From Deltaproteobacteria bacterium (lineage in GTDB: Bacteria > Desulfobacterota > Dissulfuribacteria > Dissulfuribacterales > QOAL01), in assembly GCA_027028245.1 (NCBI GenBank), contig JALVJO010000169.1, positions 1 to 54,352 on the forward strand: DNA of 54,352 nt, read 5' to 3'. The notes below the pieces were generated by a model. That model was given only the letters and a program-made list of their open reading frames with translations, did not search any database and was not told the DNA's origin. The translations under genes were made by a program, and so were the position numbers. This document shows, in pieces, positions 5,722 to 26,095 of this stretch. How positions within the stretch are numbered: the stretch's first letter is position 1; every line of letters starts with the position of its first letter.

Positions 5722-6672
5722 TTAAAGTTTTACCGTCCTGTTTCTTCCCTCCTTCTTGGCCTGGTAAAGTGCTTTATCTACCCGGTTTACCAGCTCTTCA
5801 ATCCCCTCCGTGCGTTCTGCCTCTGTGAGACCGGCTGAAACCGTAATGGTCAGGCTTGTTTCAGGTTGTTTTACCAGGAATCTCAGTGCTGAAATCTTGT
5901 TTCTGATCCTTTCTGCTATCCCGTACGCCTCTTCGGCAGATGTGTGGGGCAGGATAAGCATGAACTCTTCCCCGCCATAGCGATATGCTGCGTCTGTTTC
6001 CCTGATTCCCTTTTTCAGGACGTCAGCCACCTTTTTCAGAACCTTGTCGCCCACCCTGTGGCCGCAGGTGTCATTAATGTTTTTAAAATGATCCAGGTCG
6101 AACATGATAAGGGAAAGCGGGTATTTATATCTCTTTACTCCTGCAAGCTCCTTTTTGAGGTCAGACTCGAAGGCCCTCCTGTTCAAAAGACCGGTCGGGG
6201 CATCAATTCGAAGTTTAGATCGAAGCTCTGCAATGATTTCGGTCTGTTTTTTCAGGCGTTCTTCCGTCTGTTTCGCCTTTGCCTCAAGGGTCTTGTTCTT
6301 GAGCATCAGGGAGGCTATTTCCTCCCTGAAAAGATTGTCCATGTCCTTTTCTTCCATGGACAAAATGGAGCTTTCCATTTCGCCTACGTGCTGTTTAGCA
6401 GAGGCCAGGAAATTGTTGACGGTGTCTTTGACCCCGCCGAGAACCTTGTCTGTTGCGTCCATAAAGGCTTGTATTGTTTCTGGTGAAAATGATTCAGAAC
6501 CTTCTTTTTTGAGGATGGACGAAAACTCCAGGGTTTTGGCCACTGCCCAGAATTCTTCAGTATAGGCCTCGGGCCAGGGCAGTTCTCCCCTGCTAACAAG
6601 CCGTTTCAAGGCAGTGCGTGCAGTCTGCGCCACCTGTTCAGCCAATACTGTAGCGGTTGTTTTCGTCTTCAT
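5722..6672 (-). CDS. GGDEF-domain diguanylate cyclase
   Basis: C-terminal GGDEF domain: LMFDLDHFKNINDTCGHRVGD and YGGEEFMLILP. Confidence 0.9.
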   Translation of the reverse strand: MKTKTTATVLAEQVAQTARTALKRLVSRGELPWPEAYTEEFWAVAKTLEFSSILKKEGSESFSPETIQAFMDATDKVLGGVKDTVNNFLASAKQHVGEMESSILSMEEKDMDNLFREEIASLMLKNKTLEAKAKQTEERLKKQTEIIAELRSKLRIDAPTGLLNRRAFESDLKKELAGVKRYKYPLSLIMFDLDHFKNINDTCGHRVGDKVLKKVADVLKKGIRETDAAYRYGGEEFMLILPHTSAEEAYGIAERIRNKISALRFLVKQPETSLTITVSAGLTEAERTEGIEELVNRVDKALYQAKKEGRNRTVKL

Positions 6673-6790: not shown

Positions 6791-8587
6791 CTATCTCTTC
6801 TCGGACAGCTGTCCTTTTGAAGCAGCCTTGGTACATGGGCTGGGCGGGGATAGCGGATTCCAGTTTTTCATTACCTTGTCCTTAAAGGAGCTGTGGCAAA
6901 ATATGCAACGGCCGGCATTCAGTATGGCCTCAAGCTCAGCCCTGTCAAAGGGCCTGAGGTCTGGTCTTGATACGTTGACCAGTCTTTTTCCCTCCATGTT
7001 CACAAACCCGTCAAGTCTCGGCATGGTGTTGTCTCCTATTTTTCTTGAAGACGTTGCCGGGATGAAATGCCATCTGCCGTCCTTTCTTTGCAAAGAGCCG
7101 CTTCCCAGGCCGAGGACCCTGCTGTCTGCGTGGCATTCCATGCAGCTTCTGGACCTGGCATTTGTCGTATGGGGATCCATCCACGAGATGGTCATTCTTT
7201 GGTAATCGCCCTTCCAGTTCTTCCTTTCATCCAGAAAGGAAATGAAATCCTGTCAGCCAGGCACGAGGATCACTACCTCATCCCTACCTGTATGGGCCTG
7301 CCTTTTCACGCCCAGGGCAGGTGCCTCGTATCTCATGTATGATCTGAACTCCTGCCATAGGCCCGGAGTTTTCTTCAGGGAAAGCTTGTCCAGCTGCTCC
7401 CTGGACTTGTCATTTATAACGTGACACCCGTAACACTGGGGCACCCAGCGGCTGTGACACGACTGGCATGAAAGTCTCTGATGGGTCTTGTGTCTGCATT
7501 CATCCTGGAGGAAGGGATCAAGGGGATGAAGTTTTCCGTCATTTTTGCCCTTTAGGAAAAACACATCCTCCTTCTTTACAAGGTTGGTGAGAACAGGAAA
7601 TTTTGGTTTTTTCTGGTTTTCCTGGAAGATTTTTTGGAGCTTAGTTCTGCCTCCGTGGCAGGTAGAACAGGTTATTTCCAGCTGTTGTTCAAAGTGCGCC
7701 CTTTCCTTGCCATCACCCATGACCTCTTTCTGACTGTGGCAGTCTATGCATATCAGGCCCTTTTGGAAATGGACATCAGGGGAAAGCCTTTTGACAAATC
7801 TTCCATCGTGAAGCTGGTCTTCCGAAAAGTCCCCGTCCTGAAAGGGGGTGCCGTAGCCTTCGGCTTCATACATGCCCTGGTAGGCAAGGCCGATCCTGCC
7901 GCTTCTGTTGTGACAGCGCACGCAGTTTTCCATGGGAATATGCCTTGTGATGAAGGGATGATCAGGTTTTCTGCCGTTTTTTTGTCTTGGTGGCTTGTAA
8001 TAGTGGCAGGCCGTGCATCCTCCTCCCCTTTCTACCAGGAAGCTCGGCAGCCTGTGCCTTTCCAGCCACAGGTGGCAGGTTCCGCACAGTTTTCGGAAGT
8101 AATCCGTTGCCGGGCTGTCCAGGCCGGATTTTATCAGCTTTTCCACTGTGAGGTCTTCATTGTGGTCTTTGGTCTCTTTCCAATAGAAGCGAAGGGTGGT
8201 TATAATGCCCCTGTTTGTAGCCATGAGGGATTTTTTGGCCCTTTGTACCTGGTCCACGTGGCATCCTTCCTGGCCGCAGGTCCTGGAAGCTACGGCAAGC
8301 TCTCCGGGATTGTATATCATGCCCTTGTGTGCAAGTTCCGGCGTGCCTGCCAGGGGATCTCCAAGATGACATGAAAAACAGCCCAGGACTTTCCTGCCAT
8401 GGGCCTTGTCAGGTCTTTCATCATGGCAGGAAAGGCACATATCGATCTGGCCGCCTGCGGTTCTTGTCACCCTGGATGGGCTTTCAAGGGGTTTGGCCAA
8501 GCACTTGGAACAGCTCCAAAAGAAGGGAGCAAAACCTGTCAGGAGGATGATTAAAATGAAGGCAAAGAGAGTATGAAGGCCTTTAAT
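6791..8587 (-). CDS. Multiheme c-type cytochrome, candidate selenoprotein (in-frame UGA at 7253..7255, Sec approx. residue 445)
   Basis: Track ORFs 7253..8731 and 6791..7195 are in the same frame; the 19 codons between them are open. Signal-peptide-like N-terminus IKGLHTLFAFILIILLTGFAPFFWSC; 11 CXXCH motifs (CLSCH, CFSCH, CGTCH, CTACH, CVRCH, CIDCH, CSTCH, CQSCH, CYGCH, CMECH, CIFCH) plus one CX3CH (CGQEGCH). The ORF-track start lies inside a tRNA and is rejected; the start codon is uncertain (ATT at 8587 proposed). Confidence 0.8.
7220..7242 (-). promoter_or_regulatory. Candidate bacterial SECIS hairpin for the multiheme cytochrome
   Basis: Transcribed strand after TGA: CAGGATTTCA-TTTCCTTTC-TGGAT-GAAAGGAAG; 9-bp stem (one T-G), 5-nt loop with G at positions 2-3, loop starts 19 nt after TGA. 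Confidence 0.75.
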
Positions 8588-8630
8588 GGAACCGGATGCC
8601 TCAGGGAATGCCGAGCTGAACTTTTGAACG

Positions 8631-8653
8631 AAAAAGGGCAGCGTCCGCTGCCC
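8631..8653 (-). terminator. Rho-independent terminator after tRNA-Gly
   Basis: Minus strand GGGCAGC-GGAC-GCTGCCC-TTTTT. Confidence 0.75.
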
Positions 8654-8670
8654 GTACCTTTCAAAAAGAA

Positions 8671-8745
<75 letters not shown>

Positions 8746-24088: not shown

Positions 24089-25423
24089 TCATCTTACGTT
24101 CAGGTTAATTTCAGTGCTGTTTACAAGTATTGGTGCGTACTCGCTTTCCGGCAGCTTGAAAAATTCGCCTACCGAGCTTGGTATCTGGCTGTAATACAGG
24201 TTCGCCTTGATGGTCAGTTTCCCCTTCAAATCCGCCGGAATGGTCCAGCTGTAGTCTTCAGTCACGGTCTCCTTGGGTTTGATCCTGTAGTCAACAAGGG
24301 TGTTGTCCTTGGTATACCACTGGCAGATCGTCATGCGGCCCTTGGGGTCGAAGAAGGGGTGCCTGAAGATCCTGGCCCCGTCAGGTACGTTTCCGTCCCT
24401 TTTCAGGCCCTTGAAATCCTTGATTTCCATGATCTCTCCAATGGCCTGGTATGCCATGGCCGAGGAGTCAGCGATGGTGTATTCTTCACCCTTGAATCCC
24501 TTCTTGGAAACAGGTACAGGGTATTTCTTGCCGTTTGCATCCACTGCCCATACTTCTAACCACAGCATGCGTTCCTCAGTAGAGCCCGAAGGTATGGGAT
24601 GGCCGGCCTTGCCGTTAAAGAGCTTTGCCTGGAACTTGACGGCTTCTCCAGCCTTGGCTTCCCCTGGTGCCCCTTCGATCTTGAGGTCAACCGCTCCTGC
24701 AAGCTGTGTTGCAGAGTGGGAACCCAGGAATGTGTGGTGTGCCACATCCTTTCTTTCCTTGCCGCCTCCGGCAGACTTACCAGGGGCCTTGGGCATGTGG
24801 CAGTCCTGGCAAACCCTACCTTCCTTGGCGTAGGGCCCTTCTTTCCATTCCCTGTAGGTGGCCTTTACCCATGCACCGTATGGGCTCTGCTCGTCATGGC
24901 AGGTAGCACACATCTCAGCACTCTTGTGAAATTCACTGTATGCCGTCTTGTGCATGGGGGATACAGCATCCTTTCTCGGGCCTCGTTTTAGGTTTCCAGG
25001 CTCTATGTTGAAGCTGAAATTAAAGGGAACCTTTTCAGAGGTGCCGGTTATGTTGTGGCAGACCTCGCAGGATACCCCTTCATTGGCCCTTGTGTCCTGA
25101 TGAGCCGGTTTTGGCGGAATGTCCCCTGACAGAAAGGCAAGTGGGCTGTGACATGCTATGCAGCCGGCCTTTACGCCTGCCACCTTTTCGAGTTTCTGGG
25201 AATGGGGCAGGGCAAGCTTGAAATACTCCACCTGGTCCCACTCATGGGTATAGCTTTTTGACATGAGGGTGTCCTTCCATTCCTTGTAGATCTGCCTGTG
25301 GCACATGCCGCACTTCTTGGGTTCTTTGAAATCGGCATATTTGCAGCAGCCCATCTTGGCTGCAAATGCCGCGCAGGGCAGAGCCAATAATAAAGCTGTC
25401 AGAATCGCAAGTTTTCTTAGCAT
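24089..25423 (-). CDS. Pentaheme cytochrome c554-family protein, periplasmic
   Basis: Signal peptide MLRKLAILTALLLALPCAAFA; CGMCH, CIACH, CEVCH, CATCH, CQDCH; C-terminal Ig-like region. Confidence 0.87.
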   Translation of the reverse strand: MLRKLAILTALLLALPCAAFAAKMGCCKYADFKEPKKCGMCHRQIYKEWKDTLMSKSYTHEWDQVEYFKLALPHSQKLEKVAGVKAGCIACHSPLAFLSGDIPPKPAHQDTRANEGVSCEVCHNITGTSEKVPFNFSFNIEPGNLKRGPRKDAVSPMHKTAYSEFHKSAEMCATCHDEQSPYGAWVKATYREWKEGPYAKEGRVCQDCHMPKAPGKSAGGGKERKDVAHHTFLGSHSATQLAGAVDLKIEGAPGEAKAGEAVKFQAKLFNGKAGHPIPSGSTEERMLWLEVWAVDANGKKYPVPVSKKGFKGEEYTIADSSAMAYQAIGEIMEIKDFKGLKRDGNVPDGARIFRHPFFDPKGRMTICQWYTKDNTLVDYRIKPKETVTEDYSWTIPADLKGKLTIKANLYYSQIPSSVGEFFKLPESEYAPILVNSTEINLNVR

Positions 25424-25501
25424 CTTTCCTTCCTCCATTTTTTCCTGGTGTTGTTGAACTTCCCGGTTCTTCAAACGATGAAAAGAACCGGGTTTAACCT
25501 T

Positions 25502-26095
25502 CTATTTGGCGTGCTTGGCCAGGTATTCTGCAACACCTTCTGCAGTGGGCTTCATGGCCTCTTCACCGGGCTTCCAGTTTGCAGGGCAGACCTCGCCTAC
25601 GGATTCGTGGTGCTGAAGTGCTTCGAGGATCCTGAGGGCCTCGTCAAAGTTCCTGCCCAGGGGAAGGTCGTTTACAAGGTTGTGCCTGATGATGCCTTCC
25701 TTGTCTATGAGAAACAGGCCGCGCAGGGCAATTCCGGCATCCTCCAGGAGCACGCCGTAAGACAGGGATATCTTCTTGTTAAGATCTGAAACCAGCGGGT
25801 ATTTTATGCGGCCTATGCCGCCCTTTTCCACGGGGGTCTGCCTCCATGCAAAGTGGCTGTAAGGTGAGTCCACTGATATTCCCAGCACTTCGCAGTTTTT
25901 CTCCTTGAATTTGTCGATTGCCTTGTCCAAGGCAATTATTTCTGTGGGTCAGACAAAGGTAAAGTCCAGGGGGTAAAAGAAGAGCAAGACGTATTTCCCC
26001 CTGTAAGATGAAAGGGTGACATCCTGTATGGAGTCATCAGGCATGACTGCTTGAGCTGTAAAATCCGGGGCCTCTTTGGTAACCATGGTACACAT
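25502..26095 (-). CDS. 2-Cys-type peroxiredoxin (AhpC/Prx), candidate selenoprotein with Sec49 at the peroxidatic position (UGA 25949..25951)
   Basis: Reading through TGA gives [63 protein letters not shown]...[14 protein letters not shown] Shine-Dalgarno upstream of ATG 26095. The ORF track starts only after the TGA. Confidence 0.92.
25917..25936 (-). promoter_or_regulatory. Candidate bacterial SECIS hairpin of the Sec-peroxiredoxin
   Basis: Transcribed strand ATTGCCTT-GGAC-AAGGCAAT: perfect 8-bp stem, GG in 4-nt loop, loop starts 20 nt after TGA. Confidence 0.85.

Follow-up and report, generated by a model that had tools for sequence, protein, structure and literature searches.

The hairpin that follows the in-frame UGA codon of a multiheme cytochrome gene in the window, i.e. 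the whole stretch of 54,352 nucleotides that was analysed, can with high confidence be regarded as a genuine bacterial SECIS element, the gene accordingly encoding the selenocysteine (Sec) form of a known cysteine-containing cytochrome family. This assignment follows from the exchange of UGA and Cys codons among orthologs, the covariation of the stem and the presence of the Sec machinery, and the UGA is very probably read as Sec. In the proposed mechanism, the UGGAU-capped stem on the mRNA would be recognised by SelB carrying Sec-tRNA, and the bound SelB would bring Sec to the UGA, so that translation would yield the complete secreted cytochrome with its 12 heme c sites. The Sec residue would be located in the turn VPG-U-QD, where it would take the place of the conserved Cys of the ExtM cytochrome superfamily. 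The features of the locus are listed in Table 1.

Table 1. Features of the predicted selenocytochrome locus (positions refer to the window).
Feature	Positions	Strand	Basis or remark
Predicted Sec-containing ExtM-like dodecaheme c-type cytochrome	6791..8587	-	stop 6791-6793; start uncertain
In-frame UGA, predicted Sec codon (motif VPG-U-QD)	7253..7255	-	UGA/Cys conservation
Predicted SECIS 5' arm UUUCCUUUC (= TTTCCTTTC in base listing)	7234..7242	-	sequence, folding, covariation
Apical loop UGGAU of the predicted SECIS, with G as second and third base	7229..7233	-	loop conservation in Sec orthologs
Predicted SECIS 3' arm GAAAGGAAG	7220..7228	-	sequence, folding, covariation
Conserved C-terminal extension past the UGA, heme motifs CMECH and CIFCH	6791..7252	-	ORF reading, ortholog conservation
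tRNA-Gly(GCC) gene immediately preceding the cytochrome gene	8671..8745	-	likewise precedes the copy in G012
Diguanylate cyclase (GGDEF) gene, downstream of the cytochrome gene	5722..6672	-	

On the minus strand, the elements are arranged in the order TGA CAGGATTTCA TTTCCTTTC TGGAT GAAAGGAAG. The original prediction had described a 9-bp stem with one G-U pair and a UGGAU loop, and re-reading of the minus strand reproduced this hairpin and its coordinates exactly to the base, the remaining eight pairs being of the Watson-Crick type. Counted from the UGA, the loop begins at nucleotide 20, after a gap of 19 nt. It had also been proposed that spacing and loop size fit the rules for bacterial SECIS elements, and both indeed lie inside the published bounds. 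With respect to the bSECIS consensus (a 3- to 9-nt loop with G in its first two positions, spacing of 16-37 nt and MFE below -7.5 kcal/mol; PMC13188914), the cytochrome hairpin agrees throughout and represents an ordinary bSECIS without notable differences: the loop comprises 5 nt and carries a G within its first two positions, the apical loop is reached after 19 nt, the MFE of a 41-nt segment is -9.8 kcal/mol and the 9-bp stem falls within the range of 4-16 bp, with covariation in orthologs supporting the structure.

The folding check that accompanied the original prediction returned the same stem, with an MFE of -14.2 kcal/mol when 51 nt were folded. The single-sequence z-score amounted to only -1.1 to -2.0 in comparison with shuffled sequences, so that folding alone is not convincingly beyond chance, and an Rfam scan provided tRNAs as the sole matches and none to a SECIS family. 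Strict hairpins of a comparable kind follow 18 of the 1958 TGA triplets (0.9%) in the window. Among the 18 in-frame TGAs that are flanked by long open stretches (60 or more open codons preceding the triplet and 120 or more following it), such a hairpin was detected at two, the cytochrome UGA and a peroxiredoxin UGA (25951-25949). The latter is followed by an 8-bp stem with a GGAC loop at a spacing of 20 nt, which agrees with the likeness between the two hairpins noted before. The hairpin by itself is suggestive, and the decision rests on comparison.

A search of genome contigs with the single protein as query resulted in zero matches, and a search with the alignment as query identified 391 relatives. 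The class to which the window belongs is probably Dissulfuribacteria, as suggested by a UBA3076 relative. In its 34 distinct Sec sequences, 86.1% of the cells of a 7-bp stem are paired versus 80.6 +/- 1.1% in shuffles, and changes on both sides of a pair occur in 16 cells versus 5.7 in shuffles. All controls with the partner slid by one to three columns were lower in pairing as well as in covariation. The exchanged pairs include U-A to C-G, C-G to G-C and C-G to U-A, and double compensatory changes are present in the hairpin. Moreover, the synonymous Phe codons TTT and TTC follow a facing A or G (22:0 and 0:7, respectively), although the independent compensatory events at this codon are few, numbering two to three. 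The loop positions U1 and G3 are invariant and G2 is nearly invariant in the 34 Sec orthologs. In Thermosulfurimonas and its relatives the register of the stem is moved a few nucleotides downstream with the pairing intact; the stems of this group are CUUUCC/GGGAAG, CUUUCC/GGAAAG and CCUCUC/GAGAGG, and the Leu codons CTT and CTC, as read off the table of stems, again follow A and G. Of 50 distinct Sec orthologs, 49 have a hairpin conforming to the bSECIS rules, as opposed to 13 of 55 Cys orthologs; the mean hairpin scores are 15.6 and 2.4, respectively. Most Cys orthologs have a weak hairpin or none. The original prediction had named the lack of stem covariation or conservation among UGA-containing orthologs as the finding that would speak against it; the prediction survived this comparison, as the stem covaries and the UGA is swapped only for Cys.

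These data bear on the possibility that conservation of the peptide SFLDER gives rise to the hairpin as a side effect, the UGA being recoded or not without participation of the hairpin. The codons dictate much of the stem, and resampling of synonymous codons gave non-significant results in many single orthologs: p values of at most 0.05 were obtained for 36% of the Sec orthologs versus 0% of the Cys orthologs, and the median p value per Sec ortholog was 0.07 because most of the stem is already fixed by the coding of SFLDER. In several close relatives that use the Ser codon AGC the stem comprises just 5-6 bp. A constraint on the protein only is nevertheless very improbable, since synonymous changes at third codon positions are matched by changes in the partner base, the stem register varies between clades while the pairing stays, and SFLDER is missing from the Cys orthologs of the Desulfobulbales.

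The UGA itself is kept in 37 of the 39 class genomes that have the site (36 identified by script and additionally G026, in which the Q after the UGA position is replaced by E). The remaining two genomes, G019 and G028, contain the Cys codon TGT, and the stem of G028 has decayed. The internal TGA is present in each of the 16 genomes of the family set that have a full ortholog, and outside the class the UGA is found in Thermodesulfobacteria, e.g. in Thermosulfurimonas dismutans (L152). The Desulfobulbales orthologs examined, belonging to Desulfogranum, Desulfocapsa, Electronema and Electrothrix, all carry Cys, as do a true ExtM protein (L106, 970 bits) and nearly all paralogs, including one in the same genome (C102). 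Cys homologs are thus aligned at the UGA, as is typical of selenoproteins. In a tree calculated by a quick method (LG+G4), in which several long branches were flagged, the Sec sequences form one clade with two reversions to Cys, corresponding to a minimum of three changes. The frame past the UGA is open for 153 codons, and the flanking sequence is conserved on both sides of the codon. The reading of the UGA as a true stop, resulting from a nonsense mutation or frameshift and leaving two genes or a decaying pseudogene, could draw on the standard annotation, which would end the ORF at the UGA, and on the window copy being without a canonical start codon, but the distribution of the UGA described above along with the conservation of 150 downstream amino acids and two heme motifs already refutes it.

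The deduced Sec machinery is present in the host. The genome containing the window encodes SelA (614 bits), SelB and SelD (both above the cut-off) as well as a tRNA-Sec (74.9 bits), the complete set expected for a selenoprotein-producing host. The selD gene (G000:C120:23164-24087) carries one internal TGA, which is consistent with a Sec-containing SelD. Each of the 19 genomes in the family set gave matches to SelB and tRNA-Sec, the tRNA-Sec exceeding the gathering score in 18. With respect to the Cys-containing G019 (L061), a tRNA-Sec match was not found at 1e-9 in a genome that is about 90% complete, and Sec use has possibly been lost there. Desulfogranum carries Cys at the site yet retains tRNA-Sec and a Sec-containing ExtKL, which indicates that loss of the machinery does not fully account for Cys. 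That the UGA is read as another amino acid such as Trp, or by unprogrammed near-cognate read-through, has nothing specific in its favour and is hardly credible, as Cys codons are the sole alternative to the UGA among orthologs and the host possesses SelA, SelB, SelD and tRNA-Sec along with a UGA in selD itself.

With the TGA translated as Sec, the predicted product is a secreted protein that has a signal peptide and 12 heme motifs (11 CXXCH and one CX4CH), ten of which precede the UGA and two of which follow it. An ATG, GTG or TTG start codon was not found between the tRNA-Gly gene and the signal peptide (8587-8670, minus strand); an in-frame ATT is located at 8587-8585, and the relative in G012 has an ATG. 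The window copy may contain a rare start codon or an assembly error. The best NCBIfam model is ExtM (NF040943) with 280.9 bits (E 1.7e-83), and only generic cytochrome c domains were detected with Pfam. The protein shares with ExtM the 12 heme c motifs, the overall homology and the sequence PG-C-Q around the Sec position, but it differs by the predicted Sec in place of Cys, by a score below the curated cut-off of at least 800 bits and by a location outside an ext cluster. A search of PDB sequences yielded nothing beyond a marginal match to cytochrome c-552 (E 0.095), and a Foldseek search with an AlphaFold2 model (pLDDT 79) gave no meaningful match (best E 0.54). In this model, the Sec site is placed in a beta-hairpin turn.

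The window copy stands alone between its tRNA-Gly and GGDEF neighbours, and an ext-type operon is absent here. In five genomes of or near Thermodesulfobacteria, a cytochrome b gene directly precedes the cytochrome gene, and in four of these it is in turn preceded by a small Rieske gene; these identities were tested with profiles in two genomes and carried over to the others by sequence similarity. This cytochrome b resembles ExtP (64-79 bits). Judging from this context in other lineages, the likeliest role, to which we assign about an even chance, is that of a periplasmic electron acceptor that would take electrons from a quinol-oxidising Rieske/cytochrome b module and pass them on. A tentative alternative is a cytochrome of selenite or tellurite reduction or of extracellular electron transfer, like ExtM of Geobacter, without a Rieske/cytochrome b quinol oxidase as partner. 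ExtM is the best-scoring model, and the Geobacter ext cluster that contains extM has been linked to selenite and tellurite reduction through extI (PMC5877670), but the score is far under the ExtM cut-off and the surrounding ext cluster is lacking. Since a Rieske protein and a cytochrome b are encoded in the Geobacter cluster too, alongside multiheme cytochromes (PMC5877670), both roles may be one.

Sec is proposed to act at or beside a heme, either as an axial ligand or through redox activity of its own, and not as one half of a disulfide pair. The Sec column represents the only non-heme Cys that is kept almost throughout the superfamily. A Sec-Cys redox pair was considered and rejected, as the other conserved residues, Cys335 and Cys556 (alignment numbering), are lost in paralogs that keep position 416. 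Outside the heme motifs, the candidates for distal ligands of the twelve hemes comprise seven His (six of them invariant, the seventh nearly so), two Met that are invariant and three conserved Cys/Sec residues, so that ligation of a heme by Sec is possible. In favour of Sec as the axial ligand of a c-type heme in this protein, the conservation of the column and its alignment with His, a common heme ligand, in one divergent paralog (L115) can be cited; this reading, which would amount to a natural selenolate-ligated heme, is given a low probability. We know of no natural Sec-ligated heme.

The cytochrome is a new Sec-containing family among the bacterial multiheme cytochromes, an unpublished or database-only annotation being possible. 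The 2026 inventory of 119 bacterial selenoprotein families includes the Sec cytochromes ExtKL and octaheme Otr and does not list an ExtM-like Sec cytochrome (PMC13188914). A literature search for Sec in ExtM-like cytochromes found none, the content of Haft and Tolstoy 2025 (PMC12013261) being taken from the 2026 review, and the words selenocysteine and Rieske are absent from the genome paper of T. dismutans. ExtKL (NF040886, cyt_C_like_Sec) is likewise a multiheme c-type cytochrome with a UGA-encoded Sec, but it has five hemes and Sec in the motif IPDG-U, and the window cytochrome did not match its model at E values up to 1. The Sec cytochrome of the octaheme tetrathionate reductase family (TIGR04315; PMC13188914) is also a multiheme protein, but again the window cytochrome was unmatched. 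The orthologs from Electronema and Electrothrix (L151, L157 and L167) are likely the same protein as the ExtM homolog described in cable bacteria (PMC11976967), and they differ from the window cytochrome in carrying Cys and lacking a hairpin that conforms to the SECIS rules. In Thermodesulfobacteria as well as in the class of the window, a conserved C-terminal region that carries two heme sites is lost from gene calls terminated at the UGA, and the natural Sec, Cys and reverted-Cys orthologs provide a ready set for asking what role selenium plays beside a heme.

Additionally, a divergent tandem ExtM-like paralog (L115:5793-7694, minus strand) contains His, a common heme ligand, at the Sec/Cys column (PRHQ), and the His of one of its heme motifs aligns with Ser. 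The second selenoprotein gene of the window (25502-26095, minus strand) encodes a peroxiredoxin with the UGA at the catalytic Cys (FTFV-U-PTE) and adjoins rubrerythrin and PerR-like genes; Sec-peroxiredoxins are a known family. Directly downstream, a gene without internal UGA (24089-25474, minus strand) encodes an ExtKL-like multiheme cytochrome that scores 72 bits with NF040886 (cut-off 250).
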